The notes below the pieces were generated by a model. The model ran no database searches, had not been told where the DNA came from, and saw only the letters and a list, made by a program, of their open reading frames with translations. A stretch of 23,038 nt of DNA, from positions 1-23,038 of IMG/VR virus record IMGVR_UViG_3300026097_000711; one strand, 5' to 3'. Origin of the DNA: a virus. Numbering within the stretch: the stretch's first letter is position 1; the number at the start of each line of letters is the position of its first letter. The position numbers and the translations under genes are program-made. Of this stretch, positions 4,754 through 22,867 are shown piece by piece.

Positions 4754-5588
4754 AACTGTCGATGATTTAAACTTAGCGATTGTACAACATTTACATAAAT
4801 TAAGACAGCTTAACATTGACTTAATTGTTGGGATACCACGATCTGGAATGATACCAGCTAGTCTACTTGCCACACATTTACAGTTGCCGTTTACTGATGT
4901 TGACAGTTATAATTCAAAAAGATGGTATATTAGAAATAAAAAAATAACAGTTTCAGCTAACATGCCGGAAATTCCGTTAAGAGTTTTATTGGTTGACGAT
5001 ACAATCAATACTGGCAATGCAATGCGTAGCGTAATAACGACTTTGCAGTCAAACAACGATACAATTATTAAATTTGCTGTGTACGGATCTCCAAAAAATC
5101 GACCCGAAGACATTGACTATGTTTGCGAAATATGTCCGTTGCCTCGAGCATTTCAGTGGAATATATGGAAACACAACAGTGCATCTAAGTGGGCAACTGA
5201 CATGGACGGAGTACTTTGCCGAGATCCTTCTAAGAAAGAAAACGACAAAGGCGAACGATTAAAAAACTTTTATACAAATGCTGAACCAAAGTTTTTATTT
5301 ACAAAACCAGTAAAATACATTATTACTTCCAGAGAAGAACAATATCGAGAAGTAACCACAATGTGGCTTAAAAAACATAATATAGTGTACGAACAGTTAA
5401 TTATGAAACAGACTGGACAACCTGGAGGCGATGATGCTCACGGAAGATATAAATCTCAAATATTAAACAGTTTATCAAATATTGAATTATACATCGAAAG
5501 TGATGCTAAACAAGCAAAGATTATTTCACAGTTAGTTAATTTACCAGTTTGGTGTACTGATTCACAAAAACTTTATAAAGGACAATAA
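4740..5588 (+). CDS. phosphoribosyltransferase fused to a HAD-family phosphatase
   Basis: With the GTG at 4740 the protein is 282 residues. The N-terminal half is a type I phosphoribosyltransferase, with GIPRSGMIPAS at about 31-41 and the PRPP-binding motif VLLVDDTINTGNA at 82-94. The C-terminal half carries all four HAD motifs: DMDGVL (154-159, nucleophile D154 and acid/base D156), TSR (196-198), K238, and the acidic motif ESD (253-255). So one chain holds a PRPP-using site and a phosphohydrolase site. The substrates are not clear from sequence; a nucleotide-sugar or heptose-like route is possible. In-frame GTGs at 4701 and 4731 are alternative starts. I prefer 4740 because family proteins begin near FRTVDDLN and the overlap is then only 14 bases. 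Confidence 0.78.
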   Translation: MLNFRTVDDLNLAIVQHLHKLRQLNIDLIVGIPRSGMIPASLLATHLQLPFTDVDSYNSKRWYIRNKKITVSANMPEIPLRVLLVDDTINTGNAMRSVITTLQSNNDTIIKFAVYGSPKNRPEDIDYVCEICPLPRAFQWNIWKHNSASKWATDMDGVLCRDPSKKENDKGERLKNFYTNAEPKFLFTKPVKYIITSREEQYREVTTMWLKKHNIVYEQLIMKQTGQPGGDDAHGRYKSQILNSLSNIELYIESDAKQAKIISQLVNLPVWCTDSQKLYKGQ

Positions 5589-5590
5589 CA

Positions 5591-6154
5591 ATGCTTAAAG
5601 TAGATTATTCTAATTGTAATACCGTAGAAGAACTATATCACACTTCGATGTATCAACTCTCCAAACTGTATACTCCAGATTATCCAAGCTATCTTCCGCA
5701 TATTAGAGAACTATTAAAATCTTGTAAAACTTATAGAGAATTAGGAACTAATCAAGGAGCCAGTGTAAGTTCTATTATTTTATCTAAACCCGAATATATA
5801 GAGCTTGTTGATATAAATTTTAAAAATTATGCACCACAACAATCAATTGTAGAATCATATGCAAAAGAACACAACATAGATATTGTTATGCATGAACAAA
5901 GTAGCCTTACAGTTAATACTGATGTTAAAACTGAATTTCTATTTGTAGACAGTGTACACAAGTATGCTCATGTTAAAGAAGAAATTAAGTTATACGAACC
6001 GCTCACTACAAGATATATTATGTTTCATGATACTGTTGGTTTTCCAGGAGTTGGAAAAGCCGTAACTGAATTTTTAGAAAGTACAGTAGAATGGAAATTA
6101 TATTTTCATTTAGATAGTAAAACAGCCGGATATACAATTGTGGAGAAAGTATAA
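5591..6154 (+). CDS. class I methyltransferase, CmcI/Methyltransf_24-like
   Basis: A 187-residue protein. ELGTNQGASV (50-59) looks like a Gly-rich SAM-binding loop, ELVDIN (71-76) like the acidic end of beta-2, and FLFVDSVHKY plus MFHDT (144-148) like the D/H pattern of the CmcI and macrocin O-methyltransferase group. That group often has a metal site at such Asp/His residues. O-methylation of a sugar is the best guess. It starts 2 bases after the previous stop and ends in a one-base overlap with the next gene (TAATG). The family assignment is by motif only and could be wrong in detail. Confidence 0.68.
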   Translation: MLKVDYSNCNTVEELYHTSMYQLSKLYTPDYPSYLPHIRELLKSCKTYRELGTNQGASVSSIILSKPEYIELVDINFKNYAPQQSIVESYAKEHNIDIVMHEQSSLTVNTDVKTEFLFVDSVHKYAHVKEEIKLYEPLTTRYIMFHDTVGFPGVGKAVTEFLESTVEWKLYFHLDSKTAGYTIVEKV

Positions 6155-6801
6155 TGAAAGACAAATTAATTATTATTTCAGGTGCAGACTCATATAGATA
6201 CGATGCACACATTAATCATCAAAAATATGCTGATAAATATGGAGTTGATTACAAATTTCATTTAAGTAATGGATTAAAAAATCCATATTTTACAAAGTGT
6301 TATGCAATTTTAGATAGTTTTCAAAATGGTTATGACTATGTTTTATGGATGGATGATGATGCATTTTTTATAAATTTAGATTGGGATTGCACTTCTGTAT
6401 TTCGTGAAAACAGAGAAGATGTAATTTTAACAAGAGGAAGATCTAAAAAGAACGGAATAACATTTTTTAATAATGGAATTATGTTTATTAGAAATACAGA
6501 TTCTATGAGATTGCTTTTTGAAAAGATGCCCACAATTGCAGATCAAGAATTAAAACAGAATTGGATGCCTCATTGGGGTCCTTGCGTTGGTAATGACCAG
6601 CCGAGAATGATTTATCTAACGCAAACACTGTTTCCAGAAAAAGTCAAAGTGTTAGAATATCCTGGATTTAATGCACACGAAGTGACCTTTAAAAACAGAC
6701 GGTTTTTAAAAACAAATCCTCCTATTGCTCATATTACCGGAACAAACAAAGAAGGTAAGATTGCACGATTTATTGAATCTACCGGAATACCTTTACCGTA
6801 A
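6154..6801 (+). CDS. GT-A glycosyltransferase (GT34/GMA12-like)
   Basis: A 215-residue protein. Residues 60-72 (YDYVLWMDDDAFF) form the hydrophobic strand ending in an Asp-rich DxD motif (D67-D69) that binds the metal and nucleotide-sugar. NNGIMFIRN further on matches the segment that usually positions the sugar, and the C-terminal HITGTNKEG includes a His typical of the metal site in retaining enzymes. This resembles the galactosyl/mannosyltransferase GMA12/MNN10 type, but donor and acceptor are unknown. There is no transmembrane segment, so it would be cytosolic. Local GC is very low: the row 6301-6360 counts 16 of 60 (27%). It is the last gene before a spacer with two late promoter boxes. 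Confidence 0.75.
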   Translation: MKDKLIIISGADSYRYDAHINHQKYADKYGVDYKFHLSNGLKNPYFTKCYAILDSFQNGYDYVLWMDDDAFFINLDWDCTSVFRENREDVILTRGRSKKNGITFFNNGIMFIRNTDSMRLLFEKMPTIADQELKQNWMPHWGPCVGNDQPRMIYLTQTLFPEKVKVLEYPGFNAHEVTFKNRRFLKTNPPIAHITGTNKEGKIARFIESTGIPLP

Positions 6802-6819
6802 ATAAATAAAAAATAAATA
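6801..6819 (+). promoter_or_regulatory. paired T4-type late promoter boxes
   Basis: AATAAATA occurs at 6801-6808 and again at 6812-6819, both fitting NATAAATA, in the short gap before the ATG at 6825. For the upstream box, initiation about 6-7 bases downstream would leave a leader of about 10 bases with no Shine-Dalgarno. The downstream box would start at or inside the ATG. The repeated TAAATAAATA could also be only an AT-rich spacer. Confidence 0.4.
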
Positions 6820-6824
6820 AAACT

Positions 6825-7592
6825 ATGAGCAAAATTGTATTAGTTACCGGCGGATTTGATCCTATCCACACCGGACACATTTCATATCTTACAGAAGCAA
6901 AAAAACTTGGCGATATTTTAATCGTAGGAGTTAATAGCGATGCTTGGTTAACTCGTAAAAAAGGTAGACCTTTTATGCCCAGCGACGAAAGAGCTGGCGT
7001 TATCCAAGCATTAAGCATGATTGATGTCGTTATTCAATTCGCAGACGACTACGACACAGATAATAGTGCTATCCAGTTTATCAAAGACACTCTCGAAAAC
7101 TATTCAGATCATGAAGTGATATTTGCCAACGGTGGTGATAGAACCAACGACAACATTCCTGAAATGAGTATAGGAGATCCAAGACTAAGTTTTGAGTTTG
7201 GCATCGGCGGCAACGATAAAAAAAATTCGTCGTCGTGGATTTTAGAAGAGTGGAAATCTCCCAAGACTGAAAGACCGTGGGGGTGGTATAGAGTACTCGA
7301 TGATAAGCCCGGCTACAAAGTTAAAGAGCTTGTTATAGAACCAGGTAAAAGTCTGAGCAATCAAAGACATTTTAAACGAGCAGAACATTGGTATGTTCTT
7401 AAAGGTATGATCAAACTCGACACAGAATGGAAGGGATTAAAGGATACTAAACATATCAAAGAAAACGATTGGGGTTATACAATAGGCCGAGAAGTTTGGC
7501 ATCAAGCAAGCAATCCTACAAATGAACTAGCTCATATTTTAGAAATACAATACGGCAACGAGTGTATAGAGGAAGACATTGAAAGAAAATGA
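6825..7592 (+). CDS. nucleotidyltransferase (HIGH-type) fused to a cupin of the mannose-6-phosphate isomerase type
   Basis: A 255-residue fusion. Residues 1-135 are a cytidylyltransferase-like domain, with GGFDPIHTGH (9-18) carrying the HxGH site, GVNSD (35-39), and NGGDRT (102-107) as the family's second motif. HldE/RfaE C-terminal and glycerol-3-phosphate cytidylyltransferase domains are the nearest types. Residues about 148-250 are a cupin of the mannose-6-phosphate isomerase type II group, with ERPWGWY (149-155), ELVIEPGKSLSNQRHF, and H182, E187, H188 as likely metal ligands, ending at HQASNPTN. The domain pair suggests making an activated sugar or polyol from a sugar phosphate; the substrate is unknown. 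The start ATG has no clear Shine-Dalgarno. The next gene overlaps it by 14 bases. Confidence 0.82.
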   Translation: MSKIVLVTGGFDPIHTGHISYLTEAKKLGDILIVGVNSDAWLTRKKGRPFMPSDERAGVIQALSMIDVVIQFADDYDTDNSAIQFIKDTLENYSDHEVIFANGGDRTNDNIPEMSIGDPRLSFEFGIGGNDKKNSSSWILEEWKSPKTERPWGWYRVLDDKPGYKVKELVIEPGKSLSNQRHFKRAEHWYVLKGMIKLDTEWKGLKDTKHIKENDWGYTIGREVWHQASNPTNELAHILEIQYGNECIEEDIERK

Positions 7593-8265
7593 TATTACCT
7601 GGATAAGTTCAATCTCATCAAGCAAAATTAATTCATACTCAGCTTGTATAGAAACATGGCATTTATTAAAGGGCAGAAAAATCTTGTTTTTAGAAGGTGA
7701 TTCTAACTACAAATTTCCTGATGTCGATATTGTTAACTTTGAAAAAATTTTAGATAGAAATAATTGTAATTGGATTAAAAAGAAAAGACCATTTAAAGCA
7801 TATAGATTTTGGTTTAAAGGATACAGTATCTATTATGCTGTGAAAAATAAAATATCAAAATATGTTTGTTGGATCGATGCAGATGTTAAAGCATTAACTG
7901 AAGTATCGATTAATCTAGATTTAAAAAATTACCCCTTTGCTGCCATGGAATTTGAAAATGGCAAGCATGGAGGAACCAGAGGAATAGAATCAGGTTTAAT
8001 CGTATTTGACACATCTCACCCGAAAATTGATCAGCTAATTAAAGACTATATAAATTTTTGGGAGGACGAAACTATTTTTGATTTAGTTAGACCCTATGAT
8101 GCGTGTGTATTAGATGAAATTGGTGAAAAATATAATTTTTTAAATTTATGTCCAGTAACTGCGAAAAAAGAATTAATGGGTGAAGATTCATTCAAATATA
8201 CGGATTTTAAAAATAAACTATATCATTATATAGGTAAATCTAACAAAAAAATAATAAGTGAGTAA
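7579..8265 (+). CDS. GT-A fold glycosyltransferase with DxD motif
   Basis: A 228-residue protein that starts at TTG, with AGAGGAAG a few bases upstream. No in-frame ATG exists near the N-terminus. YVCWIDAD (95-102) is the DxD strand (D100, D102). The stretch before it (FKAYRFWFKGYSIYYAV) aligns with the same region of the glycosyltransferases at 11583, 12277 and 17529, so it belongs to the same local paralogue group. GGTRGIESGLIVFD matches the E-T-G-F/L-I pattern after the DxD region in those relatives. Donor and acceptor are unknown. The row 7801-7860 counts only 13 G/C in 60 (22%), the lowest I counted. Confidence 0.72.
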   Translation: MKENDITWISSISSSKINSYSACIETWHLLKGRKILFLEGDSNYKFPDVDIVNFEKILDRNNCNWIKKKRPFKAYRFWFKGYSIYYAVKNKISKYVCWIDADVKALTEVSINLDLKNYPFAAMEFENGKHGGTRGIESGLIVFDTSHPKIDQLIKDYINFWEDETIFDLVRPYDACVLDEIGEKYNFLNLCPVTAKKELMGEDSFKYTDFKNKLYHYIGKSNKKIISE

Positions 8266-8272
8266 AAATAGA

Positions 8273-8950
8273 ATGATTCCAATTTTTATAGGATATGATC
8301 CAAGAGAAGCAATAGCATATCATACCTGCGTTAACAGCATTATTAGACATTCAACCAAGCCTGTTCAGATTATGCCTCTTGCGTTAAACTTATTCGATGA
8401 TTATAAAGAAGAACACACAGACGGTAGTAACCATTTCATTTATAGTCGCTTCCTTGTTCCGCACTTAATGAGTCATACCGGCCATGCTATATACATCGAT
8501 GGCGATATGATAATTCGAGACGACATCAACCAGCTATGGGAGTTAAGGGATCATACCAAAGATGTACAAGTTGTAAAGCATAACTATAAAACTAAAATGA
8601 CTGAAAAATATCTAGGAAGTAAAAATGAAGACTATCCTAGAAAAAATTGGTCAAGCGTTATTTTATGGAATTGTCAAAATCATCCTAATAAAGTATTAAC
8701 ACCTGAATATATACAAAAATCAACAGGAACACATCTTCATAGGTTTGAGTGGATTGACGATGATCGTATTGGAAAGTTACCAAAAGAATGGAATTGGCTG
8801 CCAGACGAATATGGCGAAAACTCAGATGCTAAACTACTACACTACACACTTGGTACTCCTAGCTTTCACGAGTTTGCCGATACGCCGATGGGTAATGAAT
8901 GGCATCGTGAACGCATTTTAACTGAGTACTGCGAACAACATGGTTTATGA
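8273..8950 (+). CDS. GT-A fold glycosyltransferase (GT8-like)
   Basis: With the ATG at 8273 the protein is 225 residues. It begins with IFIGYDPREAIAYHTCVNS, a pattern typical of phage and bacterial GT8-like proteins. AIYIDGDMIIRDD (72-84) holds the DxD pair D76/D78. Later segments, WSSVILWNC and LLHYTLGTPSFHEF, match the sugar-binding and C-terminal HxxG-type region of the family. A GTG at 8258 overlaps the previous stop and would add five residues (VSKNR); the ATG start agrees better with how relatives begin. It overlaps the next gene by four bases (ATGA). It shares little with the GT paralogue group nearby and looks like a separate acquisition. Confidence 0.78.
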   Translation: MIPIFIGYDPREAIAYHTCVNSIIRHSTKPVQIMPLALNLFDDYKEEHTDGSNHFIYSRFLVPHLMSHTGHAIYIDGDMIIRDDINQLWELRDHTKDVQVVKHNYKTKMTEKYLGSKNEDYPRKNWSSVILWNCQNHPNKVLTPEYIQKSTGTHLHRFEWIDDDRIGKLPKEWNWLPDEYGENSDAKLLHYTLGTPSFHEFADTPMGNEWHRERILTEYCEQHGL

Positions 8951-9750
8951 TTTTCCTTAGTAAAAATGGAAAAGACGAGTATGTTAACATGTTTGCTAAC
9001 GGTTGTAAATCTCCTATAGTATCAACTGACGACTTTGTATATGAAGATTCTAACAAACCCATAGTGCTTAGAGGAATTTTAAAGCATAAAATAATGAAGC
9101 GTTGCTGGAAAGATAAAAGAACTTTTTATTATATCGATACTGGATACTTTGGCAACGAACGAACTAGTAATAATCCAAACGGATGGAAATACTGGCATAG
9201 AATTGTTAAGAACGATCTACAACACGGTGAAATTATCAAACGTCCAAATAATAGATTTGAATCTTTCGGTAAGCAATTTTCGTCTTGGAAAAAAGATGGT
9301 AGGAAGATATTAATAGCAAAGCCCGATATAAAGCCTTGTAAATTTTACGGTATAGATTTAGATACTTGGGTCGAAGAAACTGTTAATACAATCAAACAAC
9401 ATACCGATAGACCTGTAGTAATTAGAGAACGAGCTCCTAAAAGAATAGATAGGATTGCTACCGATACACTCCAACAAGCATTAGATGATGATGTATTTGC
9501 GTTAGTAACATTTAACAGTGTGGCAGCAGTAGAATCTATTTTTCACGGAATACCTGTATTTACACTTGCATCAGCTAATGCTGCAAGTCCGGTATCGAGA
9601 CAAGATATTAGTCAAATAGAGAATCCGTATTATCCTAATATGGATAAATTATATGAGTGGGGTTGCCATTTAGCATATGGACAATTTCATGTTTCAGAAT
9701 TAAAGAGCGGTATAGCCAAGCAATATTTAGAGGAATGGTATGGCAATTAA
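8947..9750 (+). CDS. capsule/Kdo-type transferase, paralogue A of three
   Basis: A 267-residue protein. The C-terminal half (about 139-260) aligns with the products at 10666 and 13517. Shared features are W141 with VEETV, T153-DRPVVIR, DDDVFALVTFNS (181-191), GIPVF (201-205) and IENPYYP (224-230), then a Glu-Leu-x-x-Gly tail. This layout resembles the KpsC/KpsS capsule and Kdo transferase fold (GT-B-like), where a His-Pro pair and a later Asn-Ser or Ser-Ser are important. In this copy the position of His-Pro reads RAP (R162), so the usual His is missing. The function could have changed or been lost. ATG start in an ATGA overlap; next gene overlaps by 11 bases. Confidence 0.65.
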   Translation: MIFLSKNGKDEYVNMFANGCKSPIVSTDDFVYEDSNKPIVLRGILKHKIMKRCWKDKRTFYYIDTGYFGNERTSNNPNGWKYWHRIVKNDLQHGEIIKRPNNRFESFGKQFSSWKKDGRKILIAKPDIKPCKFYGIDLDTWVEETVNTIKQHTDRPVVIRERAPKRIDRIATDTLQQALDDDVFALVTFNSVAAVESIFHGIPVFTLASANAASPVSRQDISQIENPYYPNMDKLYEWGCHLAYGQFHVSELKSGIAKQYLEEWYGN

Positions 9751-10666
9751 ATATGTAGTAGCACACAGAAAGGATCCAAATAACATTGGCGATATTGCCA
9801 GCAATCCATTGCAATATTTTTTAAAACCTAACGAATACAAAATTATAGATATTGCACACATTGGTGCAGAGTCCTACCCTGACAATGTTCCTATGATCGT
9901 CGGAGGTGGCGGATTAATTGGAAACTCAAACTTTGGAGATTTTTTTGCAGAAATACTAAACAGTTCGGATAGAAATCAAATAGAGGCTATTTGGGAACAA
10001 AGTTGGACATTATCAAATCCAGAACATAAAGAATTACACGACGAATTTCATACTAAACTTAGATCAATAACTAACGAGTTGTTAGCAAAAATTAGACCTG
10101 TAACTGCACCTAGAATAATTTGGGGGGCAGGCCATAATAGCGACAACGGTGCTCAAGAATTCAAAGAAATTAAATGGCCTAAATGCTTTGCAAAATATAA
10201 TTTAATCGGCCTTAGAGATTTTAGTATACATAGTAGATTTAATTGGACTCCGTGTGCTAGTTGCATGCATCCTGCATTTGACAAAACTTATGCTGTTAAA
10301 AATGATATTATTTGGTTCGAACACAAAAAACAATTAATTAAAGATTTTGGAAATGATCCTATCCCGAGATTTATTAACAGCGGTTCTAATTTAGAACAAA
10401 CTATTGAACTGTTAGGATCTGCTAACACTATTATTACAAACAGTTACCATGGAGCATATTGGGGAACTTTACTTAAGAAAAAAGTAATAATTGCTGGCGG
10501 TGTTTGGAGTAGTAAATTTAGATTCTTTAAGCATCAACCACCGATTGTTGGTAAAAAAGAAACTTGGCAAGATCATATAGAATCTACTCCGATTTTTGAT
10601 ACAGCACTAGACGAGTGTCGTGCAGCTACTAAAAACTTTTGGGCTCAAATACAAGGTATCTCTTAA
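9740..10666 (+). CDS. polysaccharide pyruvyltransferase-like protein
   Basis: A 308-residue protein of the CsaB/WcaK type (PF04230-like), which transfers pyruvate from phosphoenolpyruvate to a sugar hydroxyl pair, forming a charged ketal. NNIGDIASNPLQYF (14-27), GGGGLIG (55-61), IIWGAGH (126-132) and ITNSYHGAYWGTLL (232-245) occur in the family order and spacing. NSYHG corresponds to the conserved S/N-x-x-H-G active-site motif. AGGAATGG precedes the ATG. The gene ends in a TAATG overlap with the next. A pyruvyltransferase among glycosyltransferases strongly suggests that a real glycan is being built. CsaB-like members without proven pyruvyl activity exist, so the precise reaction is inference. 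Confidence 0.8.
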   Translation: MAIKYVVAHRKDPNNIGDIASNPLQYFLKPNEYKIIDIAHIGAESYPDNVPMIVGGGGLIGNSNFGDFFAEILNSSDRNQIEAIWEQSWTLSNPEHKELHDEFHTKLRSITNELLAKIRPVTAPRIIWGAGHNSDNGAQEFKEIKWPKCFAKYNLIGLRDFSIHSRFNWTPCASCMHPAFDKTYAVKNDIIWFEHKKQLIKDFGNDPIPRFINSGSNLEQTIELLGSANTIITNSYHGAYWGTLLKKKVIIAGGVWSSKFRFFKHQPPIVGKKETWQDHIESTPIFDTALDECRAATKNFWAQIQGIS

Positions 10667-11586
10667 TGACATCTGTAGTAGCATATCTCGCAGGAGTTCC
10701 TAGTCCGCATAAAAATCCTCACAAGACAGAAGTTCTAAAACGATTTGTTGACGGTGTAAACTTAATGCGAGACAAAGGTGTTGCCCACACTGGAAAAAAT
10801 TTAGTAAATGCTGATGTAGGCGTTATACAAGGTTGGGTTCATTCTGGAAGTCCTAATACCCCACACTTAATTCTCAGAAAACAAGTTGCTCAAAACACTC
10901 ATAATAAACACACAATAATTGTAGACAGTAACTTGTTTAATTATAATTTAGGTAAACTATATCACAAACATTATAGTAGATATAGCATGGATGGTGTGTT
11001 TCCTACAACCGGAAACTACTTTCGAGATAAAGCAGACCCCAATCGCTGGCAACAAATTAGTAGAGACTTAAATCTAAGTTTAAAAGACTGGAGAACCGCA
11101 GGTAATCACATTTTATTATGTACTCAACGCAACGGCGGATGGAGTATGAACGGATTAGATGTTATGACTTGGGTAGAACAAACTGTAAGAACTTTAAGAA
11201 AGTATACAGATAGACCCATAGTAGTTAGGGGACATCCTGGTGATAAAAACGCAAGAACATATTTAAAACCAAGTAGAAATAGTTCTTGGACTTTAAGTAG
11301 AAATGAAAAAATTGTAGATGATTTTAGAAATGCTTGGGCAGTGGTAACATATAATAGTAGTCCCGGAGTAGCGGCAGCAATTGAAGGCATTCCGGTGTTT
11401 GTAACTGATCCAACTCCGCAAATTAGTCAAGCATACGAAGTTGCTAATACTGATTTAAAAGATATTGAAAATCCTGCGACACCTGAAAGATTGTCGTGGG
11501 TTGAAAAGCTATCAATGTGTCATTGGAAGTTTGAAGAATTAAGCAGTGGAGTCGCTTGGGCTCATATGAGACAGTATATCAAATGA
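10666..11586 (+). CDS. capsule/Kdo-type transferase, paralogue B of three
   Basis: A 306-residue protein, starting at the ATG of a TAATG overlap; a TTG 27 bases upstream is less likely. The C-terminal half matches paralogues A and C: WVEQTVRTLRKYTDRP (169-184), RGHP with intact His-Pro (H190-P191), VVTYNSSPGVAAAIEGIPVF (226-245), IENP (267-270), and the Glu-Leu-x-x-Gly tail. It is the most complete copy, with both the HP pair and the N-S pair expected for KpsS-like or sialyltransferase-like GT-B enzymes. The N-terminal half, with QGWVHSG and HTIIVDSNL, is the acceptor side. Substrates are unknown. Four-base overlap with the next gene. Confidence 0.68.
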   Translation: MTSVVAYLAGVPSPHKNPHKTEVLKRFVDGVNLMRDKGVAHTGKNLVNADVGVIQGWVHSGSPNTPHLILRKQVAQNTHNKHTIIVDSNLFNYNLGKLYHKHYSRYSMDGVFPTTGNYFRDKADPNRWQQISRDLNLSLKDWRTAGNHILLCTQRNGGWSMNGLDVMTWVEQTVRTLRKYTDRPIVVRGHPGDKNARTYLKPSRNSSWTLSRNEKIVDDFRNAWAVVTYNSSPGVAAAIEGIPVFVTDPTPQISQAYEVANTDLKDIENPATPERLSWVEKLSMCHWKFEELSSGVAWAHMRQYIK

Positions 11587-12305
11587 AAATAGTTGCTATA
11601 ACTAGTTTTAATCAAAAATATTATGATTTAATTGGGAAAGATAGTGTTGACAGTTTTTTAAGATATTGGCCAACAAACATTTCAATTACATGCTACATAG
11701 AAGATATGATTCTTAATCCAATCGATAGATTAAATATTATTGATTTTTCAGAGTTATGTAATCAGTATCAAGAATTTCAAAACTCAAATCAACGACCTAG
11801 AGTAAAAATATTTGCTAAAAAAGCATATTCTATAATTCATGCCATGGAAAATATCGATTGCGATTTTTTAATTTGGTTAGACGCAGATACTATTACTACA
11901 CAACAAGTAAATTTAAAACAAATAACTTCTCTGTGTCAATCTAATGATTTAGCAACATTTATGGGCGTATATCATAATAAAAATAATCAAACTTATTTTA
12001 GTGCTGAAACTGGGTTTTTTATTCTAAATAAAAATCACAAAGGATTTACAGATTTTTCTAATCGATATCGAGAATATTATGATAAACGATTAACAGAAAA
12101 GTTAAGAAGATTTTATGACGGAGAAGTATTTGGTGCTGTTGTAAAAGATTTAGAACACAAATATGAATTTAATGATATGTGTTTAAAGTTTAACAAGCAA
12201 TATAAAACACCACTTCGTAGAACTACTGTTGGGAAATTTTTACATCATTACAAAGCTAAAAGCACAAAAGACAAATTTATCGCCAATAAGTTTCTGGACG
12301 ATTAA
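11583..12305 (+). CDS. GT-A glycosyltransferase, local paralogue group
   Basis: A 240-residue protein starting at the ATG of an ATGA overlap; a TTG nine codons upstream is a weaker choice. The pattern TSFNQKYYDLIGKDSVDSFL with WP (7-30) matches the N-terminus of the proteins at 12277-13086 and 17529. FLIWLDADT (95-103) holds D100 and D102 of the DxD motif, and FSAETGFFILN is the family's E-T-G segment. The 3' end overlaps the convergent minus-strand gene by 29 bases, so the C-terminal codons of both share DNA. The paralogue relation suggests duplication within the phage lineage. Donor and acceptor are not known. Confidence 0.75.
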   Translation: MKIVAITSFNQKYYDLIGKDSVDSFLRYWPTNISITCYIEDMILNPIDRLNIIDFSELCNQYQEFQNSNQRPRVKIFAKKAYSIIHAMENIDCDFLIWLDADTITTQQVNLKQITSLCQSNDLATFMGVYHNKNNQTYFSAETGFFILNKNHKGFTDFSNRYREYYDKRLTEKLRRFYDGEVFGAVVKDLEHKYEFNDMCLKFNKQYKTPLRRTTVGKFLHHYKAKSTKDKFIANKFLDD

Positions 12306-13086
12306 TTCTCAAGTCTTGTGGCTTACTGCGACCTAACTGTTTTCTCTCACCTTTTAGATGATCAAGATATGCTCCCCATTCTGAATTAATAAGTGGATGG
12401 CCTTCACCTTTGATAATTCCAGCACTCCAATTGTGTTCATTGAGCTGACCTCTAAACTTAGTTCTTACAGCATCGAATACAAAACTATCATGCCATTCGG
12501 CTAGGGTAAAAATACCGTTATCGGCGTCGTCATACATTCTTTGAAATTCTCTTAGAAAGCTTTGTACAACCGGAGATGTTAGTTTCATAGCATATAACCC
12601 GCACTCTGTATACTTGCCTTCTCTTCCTAGAAATCCTAGTTCGCTGTTAGCAGGTAAAAAAGAATTTAATTTGTCTAAGGTTATAGGACTATGGCACACA
12701 TTATCAGCATCCATCCAAAACAGCCATTCTGTATCGCATTTTTTAACACAATCAAATATAGAATATACTTTGTGCGCAAATCTCACAGCGTCCCACTTAA
12801 ATCCTTTACCAGCATCTTTTCTTGTTCTGCGAATAGGATCACCACTTACATCACCGTTTGCTTTTGGAACTCCTTTCCAGTTGTTCTTAAATGCTGTAAG
12901 TTCATCGACAGAATCTAAATCAGTTAATACAATTCTTGAATGATCCGGTACTTGTGGATTACATTTTTCTGGGTAAACAAATAACTTTACCTCTGTAGGC
13001 CAGTTGTCTACAAATGTGTTAATCATTCGTTGACCATATAATTTTAGTCCTGCTTCGTGAAATGTTGTCACTACTGATATTGTCAT
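12277..13086 (-). CDS. GT-A glycosyltransferase on the minus strand, local paralogue group
   Basis: A 269-residue protein. The N-terminus (TTFHEAGLKLYGQRMINTF plus WP at 29-30) closely matches the product at 17529 (TTFSKDGYDLYGSKMIDTW, WP) and, less closely, the one at 11583. AVRFAHKVYSI (100-110) and WLFWMDADN (121-129, D126/D128) continue the match. An extra segment of about 30 residues between 70 and 100, rich in Lys/Arg and Gly, is unlike the others. It is the second gene of a two-gene minus-strand unit, starting in an ATGA overlap with the gene at 13083-13481. Most of the window is plus strand, so a paralogue in the opposite direction implies an inversion or separate insertion. Confidence 0.8.
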   Translation of the reverse strand: MTISVVTTFHEAGLKLYGQRMINTFVDNWPTEVKLFVYPEKCNPQVPDHSRIVLTDLDSVDELTAFKNNWKGVPKANGDVSGDPIRRTRKDAGKGFKWDAVRFAHKVYSIFDCVKKCDTEWLFWMDADNVCHSPITLDKLNSFLPANSELGFLGREGKYTECGLYAMKLTSPVVQSFLREFQRMYDDADNGIFTLAEWHDSFVFDAVRTKFRGQLNEHNWSAGIIKGEGHPLINSEWGAYLDHLKGERKQLGRSKPQDLRINRPETYWR

Positions 13087-13481
13087 CTATTAACCTTCCA
13101 AAAATGATAATCGTATTGTTTTGATACTCTTTTATAACCATGTGCTAATAGCGGTCGAATGTGATCTCTATCAAGGTGATCGCTATCTCCTATAACTAAC
13201 ATTGGTTTTGACTTTGTTAAAACATGCGTATAATGCGATATAATAGTATTATACTTTGTATCAATAAAAAATATTGATATCCCTGGCAATACATTTAGGT
13301 CGCTTTTAAAATTTCTATAAATTAAATTCTTTGATCTAATATTAGGATGTTCATCTGCAATTACAAAGACTGTGTTAAACTTTGATAGCAGATCCTCTAA
13401 ATGGCCGAAAGCTGTTCCTACAACTAATGCTGTATCGAAGTGTACTCCTACTTTGCTCAGTCTCTTTATAAATTTTGACAT
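13083..13481 (-). CDS. small Rossmann-like protein, possibly a degenerate methyltransferase
   Basis: A 132-residue protein. Residues 17-26 (TALVVGTAFG) look like the beta-strand and Gly loop of a SAM-binding fold, VFVIADEHP (38-46) like the next strand with acidic end, and ISIFFIDTKY (69-78) plus PMLVIGDSD (93-101) like later strands. The conserved SAM-binding Gly pattern is partial (VGTAFG), and the protein is short, so it may be a trimmed or inactive methyltransferase. It begins about 20 bases downstream of a perfect minus-strand TATAAATA box and is co-transcribed with the glycosyltransferase. No Shine-Dalgarno is visible. I do not recognise a named family. Confidence 0.68.
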   Translation of the reverse strand: MSKFIKRLSKVGVHFDTALVVGTAFGHLEDLLSKFNTVFVIADEHPNIRSKNLIYRNFKSDLNVLPGISIFFIDTKYNTIISHYTHVLTKSKPMLVIGDSDHLDRDHIRPLLAHGYKRVSKQYDYHFWKVNR

Positions 13482-13500
13482 AATATATTAAATAACAAAG

Positions 13501-13508
13501 TATTTATA
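13501..13508 (-). promoter_or_regulatory. T4 late promoter box (TATAAATA) for the minus-strand pair
   Basis: The plus strand reads TATTTATA, so the minus strand has a perfect TATAAATA. It lies 20 bases upstream of the minus-strand ATG at 13481. T4-type initiation 6-7 bases past the box gives a leader of about 13 bases. It lies between divergent genes and faces the minus-strand unit, which has no other promoter that I could see. Confidence 0.62.
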
Positions 13509-13516
13509 AGGCAGGT

Positions 13517-14365
13517 ATGAAGTTTAGATTATATCGTGAGTACGGCGCATTGAATAGCAACCCAGTGTTTGATGCGTTTGAACACAGTGTTAAACTGCTC
13601 GGACACACTACAACTATAGGTAACGATAGTGATGTAGATGTTATCTGGAGTGTGCTATTCCACGGACGCATGGCTAATAATAAGACAGTTTGGGATCAAG
13701 CACAACAACAAAAAAAGCCTGTGATAGTTTTAGAAGTTGGCGGTATCAAACGAGGAACAACATGGAAGGTAGGTGTTAATGGGATTAATAGAGATGCTTT
13801 TTTCGGTGATGCTGGGAACGATAGTAGGCGTAGCGATCTACTTAATCTTAAACTAAAGCCCTGGCGCACTAATGGAACAAAGATTTTGCTCTGCGGACAA
13901 CACGACCGTAGTCTACAATGGGATATGTTGCCTAGTATGACAAGATGGGTTAAAGAAACCATAGAGCACATTAGACACTACACAATTCGCCCTATTATAT
14001 TTCGCCCGCATCCTAGATGTCCGGTTCCGCAAATAGAACATATGTTTAAAGATGTTTCTAGACAAACGCCACGACAAACTCCTGGTACTTATGACGACTA
14101 CGATATGATCTTTGACGATGTTTATTGTACAGTAAGCTGGACAAGTAATCCTGGCATACACAGTGTGCTACACGGAGTTCCTAGCTACACTAGCCCCAGT
14201 AGCCTAGCTTATGATGTTAGCATTAAAAGTCTTGCTAACTTAGAAAACCCACCCCTCCATGATAGACACCAATGGCTCAATGACTATGCTTGGACAGAAT
14301 ACACTGTGGAAGAAATTGCACAAGGCCTGCCTTTACAAAGATTACTCACACAGTTAAGCAAATAA
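13517..14365 (+). CDS. capsule/Kdo-type transferase, paralogue C of three
   Basis: A 282-residue protein. Shared blocks with paralogues A and B are KPWRTNGTKILLCGQ (114-128), WVKETI (144-149), TIRPIIFRPHP (156-166, intact H165-P166), GVPSY (220-224), NLENP (241-245) and the Glu-x-x-x-Gly tail. At the N-S position this copy has T-S (SWTSNPG), and the GIPVF position reads GVPSY. ATG start with AAGG five bases upstream. No convincing plus-strand promoter is seen; a TTGACA at 13475-13480 lacks a good -10 at normal spacing. It is the last island gene before uvsW and its partner, and is less AT-rich than the neighbours. Confidence 0.66.
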   Translation: MKFRLYREYGALNSNPVFDAFEHSVKLLGHTTTIGNDSDVDVIWSVLFHGRMANNKTVWDQAQQQKKPVIVLEVGGIKRGTTWKVGVNGINRDAFFGDAGNDSRRSDLLNLKLKPWRTNGTKILLCGQHDRSLQWDMLPSMTRWVKETIEHIRHYTIRPIIFRPHPRCPVPQIEHMFKDVSRQTPRQTPGTYDDYDMIFDDVYCTVSWTSNPGIHSVLHGVPSYTSPSSLAYDVSIKSLANLENPPLHDRHQWLNDYAWTEYTVEEIAQGLPLQRLLTQLSK

Positions 14366-17026: not shown

Positions 17027-17532
17027 CAAAAATTTTAACACACGAAAATAAGTCGTTTGATTTAAACGATCTACCAGAAGAACTAGAAGACGATGTGAGA
17101 TTTTCAGTTTTAGATAATTCTAATCCTAACGATCCAGATTTCTTTTTTATACCACTAGTATTCTTAGAATCGTTTAACAGTCCTGCTATCGAATTAAACA
17201 TCAGCGGAGCAAATGTAATGATGCCCTTGGATTGGTGTATGTTGGTAGGAGAACGAGAGTGCGGATTAGATCCAGAAGTGTTACCATTAACCAGTATTAA
17301 TGAGCGTGGGTTCGAAACATTAATCTTTAATCCGATTAATGGATTTCGATTTGAATACGCTCCAGTAGAGATTGTTAATATCTACCAAGATGTTAAATGG
17401 TATTTTCCTAAAATGAAAAACGGACAGCTATTGAGTATTCCGTTAACTGACGATGATCAACCATTCTGTGCATTTTTTGTTAAAGAGATTTCTAGACAAA
17501 GTGAAGTTTTACAATTAGCTAAATTAGCATGA
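17023..17532 (+). CDS. conserved phage protein after uvsW, function unknown
   Basis: A 169-residue acidic protein that starts in an ATGA overlap with uvsW. Its pattern is FFFIPLVFLESFN, then MMPLDWCMLVGER, then VLPLTSINERGF, then IVNIYQDVKWYFPK. It looks like a compact beta-rich fold. I recall similar proteins near uvsW in T4-like cyanophages but no assigned function. The overlap with uvsW and the next glycosyltransferase (ATGA) suggests one operon from 14404 on. The conserved tryptophans (W72, W126) and Tyr suggest a structural core, not a disordered tail. Confidence 0.82.
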   Translation: MTKILTHENKSFDLNDLPEELEDDVRFSVLDNSNPNDPDFFFIPLVFLESFNSPAIELNISGANVMMPLDWCMLVGERECGLDPEVLPLTSINERGFETLIFNPINGFRFEYAPVEIVNIYQDVKWYFPKMKNGQLLSIPLTDDDQPFCAFFVKEISRQSEVLQLAKLA

Positions 17533-18260
17533 CCTCTGTTATCACAACCTTTAGTAAAGATGGCTATGATCTTTACGGTAGTAAAATGATAGATACTTGG
17601 ATTACACATTGGCCGAGTAACTATACTTTAACTGTATACACTGAGGGTTATGATATTTCTCAACAACACGAACGAGTTAACACTATAGATATTAATCATG
17701 CATGTCCAGATTTGCAAATTTTTAAAGATGCCAGTCAACAACTATTAAGAGAAAAAGATAAAAAACACAATAACAGAATTAAAAAAACTGTAAAGTGGTG
17801 TCATAAAGTGTATGCTATGGCACATGCTATTAAAAACAATTCACAGCATTTGATTTTTTTAGACGGTGACACCAGAACATTAAAACCTGTTGTTTCTAAC
17901 CTAGCAGAACAGTTAGTACAAAACTATTTGTTTGCTGTACACTTTGAAAAACTCAAAGATGGTTTACATTTTGAAACAGGACTAGTAGTGTTTAATCTTA
18001 ATCACGACAAAATAGAGTGGCTAGCTGATACTTTAGTTTCTGTATACAATAGTTTAGCTATATACAATATGAACAAAACTTGGGATGGGTTTTTATTTGC
18101 CGATCTTTACAAACAATACAATCTACCAGTAAAAGATTTATCGGCAGGAACACCAGGTGTGTTTAGTCATCCTTTGGTAAAAAAATATATTGTACACGAT
18201 GTTGGACCGAAGAAATATCACGGTACAGACTACGATAGGTATACAGGTAGAAAAAAGTGA
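17529..18260 (+). CDS. GT-A glycosyltransferase, paralogue of the 12277-13086 gene
   Basis: A 243-residue protein. TTFSKDGYDLYGSKMIDTW plus WP (6-29) matches the minus-strand gene at 12277-13086 almost position by position. TVKWCHKVYAMAHAI (87-101) and LIFLDGDTRT (108-117, D112/D114) follow in the same order, then HFETGLVVFNLN. It sits outside the main island, after UvsW, so the same family flanks both sides of the uvsW block. ATGA overlap at both ends (next gene starts GTG at 18257). Substrate unknown. Confidence 0.78.
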   Translation: MTSVITTFSKDGYDLYGSKMIDTWITHWPSNYTLTVYTEGYDISQQHERVNTIDINHACPDLQIFKDASQQLLREKDKKHNNRIKKTVKWCHKVYAMAHAIKNNSQHLIFLDGDTRTLKPVVSNLAEQLVQNYLFAVHFEKLKDGLHFETGLVVFNLNHDKIEWLADTLVSVYNSLAIYNMNKTWDGFLFADLYKQYNLPVKDLSAGTPGVFSHPLVKKYIVHDVGPKKYHGTDYDRYTGRKK

Positions 18261-18805
18261 TATCAAATAAACTTAAACAAATTTACACGGAAATACATAA
18301 TAAAACACCATTTGGCAAGAGAGGAAAAATACCTAGTCATCTAAAAGAATTTATTAAAGAAAAGAATCCAAGCAGTATATTAGACTTTGGATGTGGAAAA
18401 GGCAATCTAGTTGATACTCTAAAAGAAAAATATCCGGATAAACAGATTCACGGATATGACCCTGCTAATCCAGAATTTGACAATGGAGTACCTTGTGTTG
18501 ATATGGTGATTAGCACCGATGTATTAGAGCATGTAGAGCCAGAGCATATTGCAGATACAATAGAAATGCTATCATTGAAAGCCAAGTTTCACTATCATCT
18601 TATCAGTTGTGCTCCTGCTAAACTAATATTACCAGATGGTAGAAACGCACACTTAATACAAGAAGGTCCCGATTGGTGGAGGCCTCAATTTGAAAAGCTT
18701 GGCTTCGAAATACTTTTCGAAGAATACACAGAGTTTACAAAGTTTTCTAAACAGTTAAGGAAAGAATTACTTGTTAAAAACTATTATGTGATGATGGAAG
18801 TATGA
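18257..18805 (+). CDS. class I SAM-dependent methyltransferase
   Basis: A 182-residue protein (Methyltransf_23-like). ILDFGCGKGN (41-50) is a classic motif I, HGYDPA (65-70) the acidic end of the second strand, and DMVISTDVLEHVEPEH (82-97) the post-motif with D82 and the EHVEPEH stretch. GRNAHLIQEGPDWW in the C-terminal half is typical of phage and bacterial members that act on small or sugar substrates. It starts at GTG in a GTGA overlap with the glycosyltransferase stop, with a weak AGG upstream. Together with the previous gene it suggests glycosylation followed by methylation. MetK lies two genes downstream. Confidence 0.82.
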   Translation: MISNKLKQIYTEIHNKTPFGKRGKIPSHLKEFIKEKNPSSILDFGCGKGNLVDTLKEKYPDKQIHGYDPANPEFDNGVPCVDMVISTDVLEHVEPEHIADTIEMLSLKAKFHYHLISCAPAKLILPDGRNAHLIQEGPDWWRPQFEKLGFEILFEEYTEFTKFSKQLRKELLVKNYYVMMEV

Positions 18806-19063: not shown

Positions 19064-20158
19064 TTGAAAAACTATATCTTTACCAGCGAATCGGTAAGTC
19101 GAGGACATCCAGATAAAGTAGCAGATCAGATTTCAGATGCAATTTTAGATGCGGCATTACAAGCAGGAGACGATACTACTAGAGTAGCCTGTGAAACTCT
19201 TGTAACTACAAATTATGTTTGCCTAGCAGGCGAAGTGAAAAACTTCAACCTCACTACTGACGAAGTAGAAAACATTGTACGCAATACTGTAAAAAATATT
19301 GGGTACGAACAGGATGGATTTCATTGGAATAAATTAACAGTACACAATCATTTACACAAACAAAGTGGCGACATTGGGTTAGGCACAGATAACTTTGGAG
19401 CAGGTGACCAAGGATTAATGTTTGGATATGCGTGTAATCAAACTTCAAGTTACATGCCAGCACCTATCCATTACAGTCACGAAATACTTAAAAATTTAGA
19501 TAACAAGCGTTTATCTAATTTAGATACACTAGGTCCGGATGCCAAGTCACAGGTATCTATTGAATATGTAGACGGAAAGCCTAGTGTGGCTACAGCCGTG
19601 GTTGTAAGCACACAGCATGCCGAAGGTAAAAAATTAGAAGCACTCGGTTTAGCTAATCTTGCAATTATAGAAGAACTTGGAGGATTATATCAGGAAGGTG
19701 TTACAAAATTATATCTTAACCCAACAGGCAATTTTGTAGTAGGTGGCCCGGATGGCGATGCAGGTGTTACCGGTCGTAAGATTATTGTAGATACATATGG
19801 CGGCTATGCCCCACATGGCGGCGGCGCATTCAGCGGAAAAGATCCTACTAAAGTAGATCGAAGTGCGGCATATATGTCTCGTTGGTTAGCTAAAAATGCT
19901 GTAGCAAAGGGTTGGGCAGATTGGTGTACAGTGCAATTGTCATATGCTATCGGTGTAAAAGAACCCATGGCAGTCTATGTCGATTGTAACGATGAAGCAG
20001 ACAAGCAAGCAATTGTAAATTGGATTGACACTATTGATTTAACACCATATGGCATTATAAAAAGATTTGACATGTTTAACTTTACCAAGTATAGTAATGA
20101 GTGTGTATACGGACACTTTGGCGATAAAGATGTTCCTTGGGAAAAACTAGATGGCTGA
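19064..20158 (+). CDS. metK: S-adenosylmethionine synthetase (MetK)
   Basis: Makes S-adenosylmethionine from methionine and ATP. All hallmark motifs are present: ESVSRGHPDKVADQISDAI (9-27, with the catalytic-site His at 14), GAGDQGLMFGYA (112-123), GGPDGDAGVTGRKI (227-240) and GGGAFSGKDP (252-261). The C-terminus HFGDKDVPWEK matches the normal family ending but stops early. The length is 364 against about 384 in E. coli; the deficit is a shorter loop before GAGDQG and a trimmed C-terminus. The residue before PDAKSQV is Gly, not Arg as in E. coli. The start is TTG with AAAGGGAG 9 bases upstream. The gene overlaps the next by 8 bases. No inactivating change is visible. In the window it sits near three or four methyltransferases. 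Confidence 0.92.
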   Translation: MKNYIFTSESVSRGHPDKVADQISDAILDAALQAGDDTTRVACETLVTTNYVCLAGEVKNFNLTTDEVENIVRNTVKNIGYEQDGFHWNKLTVHNHLHKQSGDIGLGTDNFGAGDQGLMFGYACNQTSSYMPAPIHYSHEILKNLDNKRLSNLDTLGPDAKSQVSIEYVDGKPSVATAVVVSTQHAEGKKLEALGLANLAIIEELGGLYQEGVTKLYLNPTGNFVVGGPDGDAGVTGRKIIVDTYGGYAPHGGGAFSGKDPTKVDRSAAYMSRWLAKNAVAKGWADWCTVQLSYAIGVKEPMAVYVDCNDEADKQAIVNWIDTIDLTPYGIIKRFDMFNFTKYSNECVYGHFGDKDVPWEKLDG

Positions 20159-20615
20159 TAAACTTCAACTTAAAGAAATACTTGCGGCTGTGGATATGGA
20201 TGCAAAATATCTATGGGATGAACTTACACCTGATCAGCGCAAGAGTATTGTGTTTTTCACACTCAACCGATATATCAGTAATGTAAGCGGGAGTAGAGAA
20301 ATGCAAGAGCACTTCGCATTGCTTGCTAACGAACGATTTAATAAAAACTTGTTTTTGTTTTTAAGCAAGCATCCGAAGTTGTGTTGGCAGTTAGCATGCA
20401 GTTGTGCTCACGAAAGCAAGGATATTAAGTTTCATCCTTGGTTAAAACTCAAGAAAGAAAAAGATAAAAAAGCAGACTTCCTTGCAGAACTGTATCCAAA
20501 TATGAAAAGGAGCGACATTGAAACCTTGTCAGCAATTAGTACAGACAAAGAAATCAAAGAATATTGCAAAGGACTCGGTTGGGATAAAAAAGCGATCGAT
20601 GGAATTAAACTTTAA
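20151..20615 (+). CDS. conserved phage protein, function unknown
   Basis: A 154-residue, Lys-rich and mainly helical protein. Recognisable blocks are LTPDQRKSIVFFTLNRYISN (25-44), REMQEHF (49-55), FLAELYPNM (109-117) and DIETLSAISTDKEIKEY (122-138). I recall similar proteins in T4-like cyanophages but cannot tie it to a named T4 gene, although gp59- or gp62-type replication accessory roles have been considered for genes of this size. It overlaps metK by 8 bases and the next gene by 17 bases, so the three are co-translated. Function left open. Confidence 0.82.
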   Translation: MADKLQLKEILAAVDMDAKYLWDELTPDQRKSIVFFTLNRYISNVSGSREMQEHFALLANERFNKNLFLFLSKHPKLCWQLACSCAHESKDIKFHPWLKLKKEKDKKADFLAELYPNMKRSDIETLSAISTDKEIKEYCKGLGWDKKAIDGIKL

Positions 20616-21282
20616 ATGTGAGTATTGCGGAAAATATTTCGCAAAAGAAAAAACACTGATTGTACACATATGCGAGAAGAAGCGTAGGCATCTTGCTAAG
20701 AATGAAAAGCATGTACAAACAGGACTGCTTACATATCAAAAGTTTTATGAGATAGCACAAAACGGAAAAAGCAAAAAGTCTTTTGAAGACTTTGCTAACA
20801 GTCCTTACTATACTGCCTTTGTTAAGTTTGGAAGTTTCGTTGTTAACACTGCACCTATCTATCCTGAACGATTTGTAGATTGGGTAGTACGAAGCGGTGT
20901 TAAATTAGATCACTGGTGCCGAGATGAGCTGTATGATCAATACTTAATCGAACTTATTAAGAAAGAACCTGCAGACGGTGCTATACAACGAACGATAAGT
21001 ACTATGATGGATTGGGCAGAGAATAACGATGCCGCTTGGGAACACTACTTTCAATATGTTAATCTTAACAGAGCTACACACGATATTCGAGAAGGTAGAA
21101 TAAGTCCTTGGATACTACTTAATACCAAGTCAGGCAAAGACATGCTACAACGAATGAATGACGAACAATTAGAAATTATAGGGCGTGTAATTGATCCTCA
21201 GTATTGGATCAAGCGATTTAAAACTAATCCAGCAGATCACGAGTTGGTTAAGGATGTTGTAAAAGAGGCTAAAATTTTATGA
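20599..21282 (+). CDS. C2HC zinc-finger phage protein, function unknown
   Basis: A 227-residue protein from the ATG at 20599; a longer TTG-start version is possible but would overlap more of the previous gene. The N-terminus holds a Cys/His finger (CEYCGKYFAKEKTLIVHIC: C7, C10, H23, C25), followed by the basic stretch EKKRRHLAKNEKHVQ. The rest (about 50-227) is helical with conserved-looking blocks such as FANSPYYTAFVKFGSF and VIDPQYWIKRFKTNP. A finger plus basic patch suggests nucleic-acid binding. I recall relatives in T4-like cyanophages without function. It is part of the operon that begins at metK or before. Confidence 0.82.
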   Translation: MELNFKCEYCGKYFAKEKTLIVHICEKKRRHLAKNEKHVQTGLLTYQKFYEIAQNGKSKKSFEDFANSPYYTAFVKFGSFVVNTAPIYPERFVDWVVRSGVKLDHWCRDELYDQYLIELIKKEPADGAIQRTISTMMDWAENNDAAWEHYFQYVNLNRATHDIREGRISPWILLNTKSGKDMLQRMNDEQLEIIGRVIDPQYWIKRFKTNPADHELVKDVVKEAKIL

Positions 21283-21533: not shown

Positions 21534-21947
21534 ATGTTATATAGATTTCATTTAGCCATAGAAGGGGGAGATTTAAAAAAAACAATACCCTTTTATATAG
21601 ACATATTGGGCTGTAAAACAGATATGTGTGAAGAAGGACACTGGCAAGATATAGATTTTTGGGGACATGAACTAACACTTCATACATCAGTACCTAGAAC
21701 TGCTCTATCTAACGATCGTCATGATGTTGATATGGGTGCTGTTATAGTTCCTCACTTTGGTGTACATTTACCATATGATATTTACACAACTGTAAAAGAA
21801 AATGTAAAATCTACAGTCGGTTTTGTTGATCATCCATATATAAGATTTGCTGGAACAGACTACCAACAAGAAACTTTTTTTGTACACGATCCTAACTTTA
21901 ATATTTTAGAAATAAAGAGTATGACAAACTTGGATAATAATGCCTGA
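21534..21947 (+). CDS. VOC-fold (glyoxalase/dioxygenase-like) protein
   Basis: A 137-residue protein with the vicinal-oxygen-chelate layout. The opening YRFHLAIEGGDLKKTIPFYIDILG (3-26) is the standard first module, with H6 as a likely metal ligand. H50 (ELTLH), H78 (FGVHLP) and E126 (FFVHDPNFNILEIK) are the likely other ligands. VOC proteins include glyoxalases, ring-cleaving dioxygenases and fosfomycin or bleomycin resistance proteins; the exact reaction cannot be read from sequence. A strong AAGGAG (21520-21525) lies 8 bases before the ATG, one of the better ribosome sites in the window. It overlaps the DnaE-like gene by 8 bases. Confidence 0.78.
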   Translation: MLYRFHLAIEGGDLKKTIPFYIDILGCKTDMCEEGHWQDIDFWGHELTLHTSVPRTALSNDRHDVDMGAVIVPHFGVHLPYDIYTTVKENVKSTVGFVDHPYIRFAGTDYQQETFFVHDPNFNILEIKSMTNLDNNA

Positions 21948-22503
21948 TATTGATATAGATTTTGTCGACAGAGAACAAGCACTAGAGTTATTTAAACACA
22001 CTAGAGCTAGTCGATACGAAGACAATAAGATTGTGAAGCATAATACAGGTGTATATCTTCACGAAGTCCCAGTTGATGCTGTATCTAATCTATGTGCGGT
22101 ACCGTACGATCAGGCAGACGAATATGGGTACTTTAAACTTGACTTCTTAAATGTAAGTATGTATAACGGTGTTCGCAGTGAAGAACATCTTGTAGAACTT
22201 ATGAACAAGGAGCCGCTATGGGATTTGTTAGAGCAGGAAGATTTTGTCAACCTTTTGTTCCACATCAACGGACACGTCAGCATTTGCCAACAGATGAAAC
22301 CGAGAAGCATAGAACATCTGGCGGCAGTGCTAGCAGTAATTCGCCCGGCCAAGAGACACTTAATAGGAAAGACGTGGGAAGAAGTTCTAGAAGAAGTTTG
22401 GACTAAACCCGAAGAAGGTTATTATTTTAAGAAGTCGCATGCTACAGCTTACGCAGTTGCTATTGTTGTACAGATAAATTTAATTTGTGAACAGATTAGT
22501 TAG
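21940..22503 (+). CDS. miniature DnaE-like protein (condensed Pol III alpha)
   Basis: A 187-residue protein that keeps pieces of the bacterial replicative polymerase alpha subunit in the right order. PDIDIDF (2-8) matches the palm PDxDxDF motif that carries two of the three catalytic aspartates. TGVYL (36-40) matches the HAAGVVI region, GYFKLDFL (63-70) the KFDFLGL motif, and KPRSIEHLAAVLAVIRPA (120-137) the KPxxFEDLIAxxALYRPG segment. YYFKKSHATAYAVAIVVQ (161-178) matches the FNKSHAAAYxLxAYQ motif. A normal DnaE is about 1,100 residues, so the PHP domain, most of the palm and the C-terminal parts are missing. Catalysis seems unlikely with so much deleted; DNA binding or a scaffold role are options. 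I recall similar proteins in T4-like cyanophages. Eight-base overlap with both neighbours' ends. Confidence 0.8.
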   Translation: MPDIDIDFVDREQALELFKHTRASRYEDNKIVKHNTGVYLHEVPVDAVSNLCAVPYDQADEYGYFKLDFLNVSMYNGVRSEEHLVELMNKEPLWDLLEQEDFVNLLFHINGHVSICQQMKPRSIEHLAAVLAVIRPAKRHLIGKTWEEVLEEVWTKPEEGYYFKKSHATAYAVAIVVQINLICEQIS

Positions 22504-22867
22504 GCTTTCTAACCAGCGTAATTGATTTTCTCTTTACTCTTTTTACTATAATATCATTGAGGCTGGTACATGGTCCTAGCAATAATTTTACATCTTTAGT
22601 GTTAAAGTTTCTTATTGCGTATCTAAATTCACCGATGTCTTTGTTTAAGAATATGTTAATTGGAATTTGTCTATTTGATTCCCACCACCATACTTCACCA
22701 AGTTCTAAAAATTTAGATTTTTCTTCTTCAGTTTTTAGTGTTTCATAAACATACATGCTGGTTATGCTAGCATCTTGGTTGATTATGATGCCAACATATT
22801 CTTTGTCTACATGGTTAATAACGCTGATGAATGGAAAGTTTTCTTGTAGATTTTCTGATATTTTCAT
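22496..22867 (-). CDS. conserved phage protein on the minus strand, function unknown
   Basis: A 123-residue protein. The stretch YVGIIINQDASITSMYVYE (24-42) and LGEVWWWESNRQIPINIFL (56-74) resemble a family I remember from T4-like cyanophages near structural genes, without a known role. It is basic near its C-terminus (KRVKRKSITLVRK). Its 3' end overlaps the convergent DnaE-like gene by 8 bases, with a small hairpin over the two stops. Upstream, a minus-strand TATAAATA box lies 48 bases before the ATG. The start codon has no Shine-Dalgarno. Confidence 0.82.
   Translation of the reverse strand: MKISENLQENFPFISVINHVDKEYVGIIINQDASITSMYVYETLKTEEEKSKFLELGEVWWWESNRQIPINIFLNKDIGEFRYAIRNFNTKDVKLLLGPCTSLNDIIVKRVKRKSITLVRKPN
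22499..22513. terminator. small convergent hairpin, possible bidirectional terminator
   Basis: GTTAG (22499-22503) pairs with CTAAC (22509-22513) around a GCTTT loop. It lies over the stop codons of the two convergent genes. The stem is short and only T-rich sequence follows on the plus strand, so the terminator role is uncertain. Confidence 0.35.

Follow-up and report, generated by a model that had tools for sequence, protein, structure and literature searches.

The 23,038-nucleotide stretch of viral DNA analysed here (positions 1 to 23,038 of the IMG/VR virus record IMGVR_UViG_3300026097_000711, hereafter the window) has an open reading frame (ORF) of 187 amino acids at 21940-22503 on the plus strand. 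Comparison of its sequence with those of relatives makes it highly probable that the product is the C-terminal subunit (C) of a two-subunit minimal family C DNA polymerase working beside a family B replicase. The protein is a real relative of DnaE, the family C polymerase, and is a new environmental member of the split minimal polymerase III (Pol III) alpha described from group 2.2 jumbo phages (Iyer et al., 2021; PMC7824862), on which no experimental work was found in the literature. In the proposed arrangement, the palm of this phage-specific minimal Pol III alpha would be divided between two genes. The N-terminal subunit (N; PHROG_11127) would contribute helices and the GRGS loop binding the triphosphate of the incoming nucleotide, while C would contribute the three metal-binding aspartates, the remaining palm sheet and shortened fingers. 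The two chains probably associate non-covalently to rebuild one active site, and together may form a small nucleotidyl-transferring polymerase of low processivity.

A preliminary description made from the letters of the window had placed a DnaE-like protein at these positions with palm and finger motifs in order, and all five motifs were located there, an ordered set that is more than chance. The features of the gene are as follows:

21940..22503, plus strand: predicted C subunit of the split minimal family C polymerase, carrying the metal-binding half of the palm and reduced fingers (PHROG_11778)
21943..21963, plus strand: PDIDIDF motif (residues 2-8) with the first two catalytic aspartates, D3 and D5, aligned to MPDIDIDF of DnaE
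22039..22050, plus strand: HNTG, within KHNTGV (residues 33-38), counterpart of the HAAGVV palm motif of DnaE to which it is aligned; H34 and G37 invariant
22135..22143, plus strand: K-L-D of FKLDFL (residues 65-70) with lysine K66 and the third catalytic aspartate D68, aligned to KMDFLG/KFDFLG of DnaE
22339..22353, plus strand: IRPAK (residues 134-138), counterpart of the (F/Y)RPGP finger motif of DnaE; I134, R135, P136 and K138 invariant in 19/19
22426..22455, plus strand: FKKSHATAYA (residues 163-172), counterpart of FNKSHSAAYA of DnaE and aligned to DnaE 773-787; H167 and Y171 invariant

We take D3 and D5 to be the equivalents of D401 and D403 of Escherichia coli DnaE, and D68 and K66 those of D555 and K553. 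The ATG start codon of the gene overlaps the stop codon of the upstream gene (21534-21947), which suggests that the two are translationally coupled.

Assignment of the protein to family C is based on several profile searches. PHROG_11778, annotated as 'DNA polymerase', spans its entire length (3.5e-70, PHROGs) and PHROG_405, a phage DnaE family of 1190 amino acids, matches it at 2.8e-10. Pfam gives one match to the fingers, and because this is below threshold (E = 0.06) the protein is easily overlooked. Among 46 aligned diverse relatives, 41 have a match to Pfam DNA_pol3_finger, and all 46 are matched by bacterial Pol III alpha models (best 4e-6). A search of the PDB with a profile of the PHROG_11778 family returned DnaE chains only, aligned at the PDIDIDF, KMDFL/RPG and NKSHA regions.

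The N-terminal part of the palm is missing from C and is supplied by a second gene, so that a polymerase encoded by two genes is the natural reading. When large relatives were searched with the Pol III alpha palm model PF07733, a second, separate ORF of about 155-165 amino acids was found to cover model positions 11-97, and C begins at approximately position 97, where this coverage stops. Across the family the N gene codes for about 155-180 amino acids, and its product is the stretch of palm that comes before C, including the GRGS motif that binds the triphosphate. Its profile matches residues 320-393 of E. coli DnaE, and when both proteins are aligned together with bacterial DnaE, the N protein ends at residue 406 and C starts at 410, with three positions between them. 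Two regions are absent from the N and C core in this alignment, one the thumb (about 441-521) and the other mid-finger (about 654-736), with roughly 155-160 residues lost in total. The preliminary description had supposed hundreds of residues to be deleted between the motifs and both ends of the polymerase core to be kept; the loss is the more limited one given here, and the N-terminal palm with its GRGS is not in C, being encoded by another gene in relatives.

Both halves also resemble family C polymerases in their predicted structures. The AlphaFold2 model of C has a predicted local distance difference test (pLDDT) value of 91.2 and shows an aspartate-bearing beta sheet followed by helices, while that of N (pLDDT 84.6) is mostly helical. 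In Foldseek searches against the PDB, ranks 1-9 for C and 1-8 for N were taken exclusively by family C polymerases, the best probability being near 1. Profile searches and fold prediction had both been put forward as checks on the original DnaE assignment, and both recovered this family. The N-terminal part of the N protein gave a weak match to a PDB entry named 'ORF67', which was lost when that part was searched alone.

The two genes occur together. A strict search for N gave 60 phage records, all 60 of which are also in the C lists, and both halves are present in each of the 6 complete isolate genomes examined, as well as in several large environmental contigs. The sole identified record with C and no match to N is W12-3, which is 109.5 kb in size against approximately 350 kb for its relatives. 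N and C lie 34 kb apart in CBB, 31 kb in 121Q and 44 kb in Paride, and no fused or adjacent form was found among 80 loci of C and 93 of N, each taken with flanks of 3-4 kb. The distance matrices of the two proteins are correlated (r = 0.75), with none of 10,000 permutations reaching this value. Annotation of the halves in sequence records is inconsistent, ranging through 'putative membrane protein', 'hypothetical protein', 'DNA polymerase' and 'DNA polymerase III alpha' (e.g., L101 and L219, the latter being Pseudomonas phage Paride), which makes the pair easy to miss in databases.

The C protein is found in jumbo phages, with matches in 65 isolate records; in 63 of these the match spans 80% of its length or more, with identities of 37-55% among the listed isolate members (RaK2, 121Q, GAP32, CBB, PA5oct, XacN1, SCTP-2, Atu_ph07, and Phosso). 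At least 548 loci with a C homolog are present in IMG/VR, and the best 80 of these relatives are all full-length with intact frames, at 188-195 amino acids. A query with the divergent C protein of SCTP-2 recovered nothing new. A scan of bacterial and archaeal genome contigs for C gave just six weak matches, all six with an ORF of more than 1150 amino acids. The two of these that were inspected are complete, ordinary bacterial DnaE genes, which set aside a bacterial origin of the C form; for the same reason, it looks to be confined to phages.

Both genes are under strong constraint, with a median ratio of non-synonymous to synonymous substitution rates (dN/dS) of 0.077 for C (100 close pairs) and 0.101 for N. 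Residues D3, D5, and D7 are unchanged in 46/46 metagenomic relatives, and in 19 diverged genomes carrying both halves these three, together with H34, G37, K66, D68, R135, P136, and K138, never vary; the same holds for the histidine and tyrosine of the KxHAxxYA motif and for the GRGS motif of N. The C gene therefore looks to be maintained rather than a decayed relic. That mobile elements broke up a formerly complete DnaE gene, leaving a remnant in decay, is an idea with a precedent in this phage group, in which a family B polymerase has been split around an intein (PMC6892783). Such decay is largely refuted by the low dN/dS, the constant length of the best 80 relatives and the 60/60 co-occurrence of the halves, and its probability is negligible. 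The junction is also clean: no residue of a split intein is seen, N ending in ...FFKEI (in L083, in ...WGVGRGSSVASYVLYLIGVHKVDSVKYNLPIEEFFKEI) and C starting at MPDIDIDF, and no intron was found; a trans-spliced form was discarded after Rfam gave no match close to either gene.

A second alternative is that C is non-catalytic, a DnaE core put to a new use, such as the binding of DNA or primer ends, the regulation of replication factors or service as a decoy for them. The thumb, most of the fingers, the PHP domain and the clamp-binding parts are indeed missing, and the same genomes have a full family B replicase. However, a decoy would not require the DxD aspartates, the third aspartate with its lysine and the GRGS of the partner to be invariant in 19 deeply diverged pairs, and every complete isolate also has the complementary half; this explanation is considered unlikely. 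The preliminary description was right that the gene is a non-random, conserved DnaE derivative with palm and finger elements in a T4-related phage. Its terms 'remnant', 'decoy', and 'regulator' are not supported, in view of the invariance of the catalytic aspartates, K-x-D, H-x-x-G, RPxK, and the partner GRGS in 19/19 and of a dN/dS of about 0.08-0.10.

The 2021 description (PMC7824862) was arrived at independently and agrees with the present results. Like the split Pol III alpha that it gives for group 2.2 jumbo phages, the system as seen in relatives lacks other Pol III domains and has a family B polymerase alongside, and the protein in the window corresponds to the C-terminal one of that pair, with the start at the DxDxD strand, the three catalytic aspartates and the short fingers. 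It differs from the isolates in belonging to an uncultivated relative, 37-55% identical to them, with its own N gene outside the window. A family C enzyme had been thought unexpected in T4-type phages, but was thus already on record in 2021. PHROG_11778 and PHROG_11127, both labeled 'DNA polymerase', match C of the window (over its full length) and the partner genes in relatives, respectively; the entries, as shown, do not say that together the two families make up a single enzyme. C keeps the catalytic aspartates and finger motifs of bacterial DnaE, and their order, whereas the phage pair is without the PHP, thumb, HhH, and C-terminal domains, has reduced fingers and has its palm split over two proteins. 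In complete DnaE and PolC a single chain holds both the GRGS motif and the catalytic aspartates, while in the phage pair GRGS belongs to the partner of C. The papers on Pectobacterium phage CBB (PMC5259590) and Atu_ph07 (PMC6102473) recorded no more than a truncated or predicted alpha subunit, CBB_328 and gp316, respectively. Both belong to the same system, in which CBB_328 represents the N half; the C half of CBB was deposited as a 'putative membrane protein'. Phage MIJ3 (PMC6892783), of the same phage group, also encodes a polymerase in pieces, but there it is the family B enzyme, whose pieces are separated by a (split) intein and a homing endonuclease, and not an N and C pair.

With regard to genome setting, a family B polymerase was found in 8/8 genomes of relatives tested, while none of these eight has a PHP or HhH_6 domain. 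No third fragment with the remaining fingers, PHP or HhH was found in the related genomes searched, where a weak match to the finger model in CBB (198044) was far under the cut-off. A DnaQ-type exonuclease was seen in four of six isolates. The C gene of the window is surrounded by a T4-type replication and recombination set (SSB, UvsX, UvsY, and a UvsW-type helicase); in isolates a primase and a DnaB-type helicase lie downstream of it, and in related genomes the N gene is near the clamp loader. Bacillus subtilis, for its part, has a second DnaE that extends primers. By analogy with such bacteria, and from its gene neighborhood, the most likely role of the pair would be short synthesis beside the family B replicase, either near the primase and helicase, as in primer extension, or in recombination-linked repair.

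The same neighborhood bears on another possibility, that N and C form an active nucleotidyltransferase that does not copy a template and instead adds nucleotides to, for example, DNA ends, RNA or protein. A Pol-beta-type active site is complete across both chains and the template-holding parts are reduced, as this would have it; yet the finger motifs RPxK and KxHAxxYA are (nearly) invariant, suggesting that handling of template and nucleotide is kept, and the surrounding replication genes fit a polymerase. An enzyme of this type is somewhat less probable still than a non-catalytic C.

The C gene also has a constant neighbor at its 3′ end:

22496..22867, minus strand: convergent gene of 123 amino acids that runs into the C gene and overlaps its 3′ end; PHROG_11637, of unknown function

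A PHROG_11637 homolog lies on the minus strand downstream of C in 90 of 92 family loci, being missing in XacN1 and CM1, and the linkage extends from environmental contigs to RaK2, PA5oct-type, and Atu_ph07 phages. This fixed linkage suggests a functional tie with the C gene, the product being a possible partner. A bolder proposal, at present tentative and less likely than not, is that N and C assemble non-covalently into an active family C polymerase without a thumb, about 340-390 residues in size and perhaps the smallest in the family, for a step that the family B replicase omits (such as primer extension before hand-over), with PHROG_11637 possibly a third subunit or regulator.

Several points weigh against a two-subunit polymerase. 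With the thumb and the larger part of the fingers gone, DNA would be bound less well, and the pair may be inactive or need a further partner. The correlation of the N and C trees can reflect shared genome history, which contributes to it. Foldseek E-values are modest (1.3e-3, 1.7e-2) with TM-scores of just 0.4-0.5 and are not proof, although such values would be expected of heavily cut-down halves. Several long contigs from the closest relatives (G001, G002), which may be incomplete, also gave no N. The window, as a 23 kb fragment, does not have the N gene, so the partner of this phage is predicted from relatives that carry N, which include ones with C proteins 62-70% identical to that of the window.

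Other genes of the window may be mentioned. Many sugar-related genes (4169-14365 and 17529-18805) are inserted in the replication block, where they separate UvsY from the UvsW-type helicase. They include a match to glycosyltransferase family 8 and a cytidylyltransferase joined to the C-terminal domain of a mannose-6-phosphate isomerase; several further ORFs appear by eye to be glycosyltransferase-like and methyltransferase-like. A complete phage-encoded S-adenosylmethionine synthetase with all three Pfam domains (PHROG_1569) is present at 19064-20158. A few genes upstream of C, at 20518-21282, is a conserved PHROG_11058 protein of unknown function, in which a C2H2-like zinc-finger stretch was seen by eye (CEYCGKYFAKEKTLIVHICEKKRRH).

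To the published split enzyme, the present analysis adds the exact junction, the residue-level conservation of both halves, selection estimates, the environmental spread and the conserved neighboring gene. Homology to DnaE, the complementary nature of the halves, their co-occurrence and the conservation of active-site residues are direct results. If the halves do rebuild an active enzyme, it would be a natural case of an active site shared between two chains and a family C polymerase reduced to a working minimum, and would be of use in studying which pieces of the bacterial replicase are indispensable and for what reason giant T4-type phages retain two polymerases of unrelated families.
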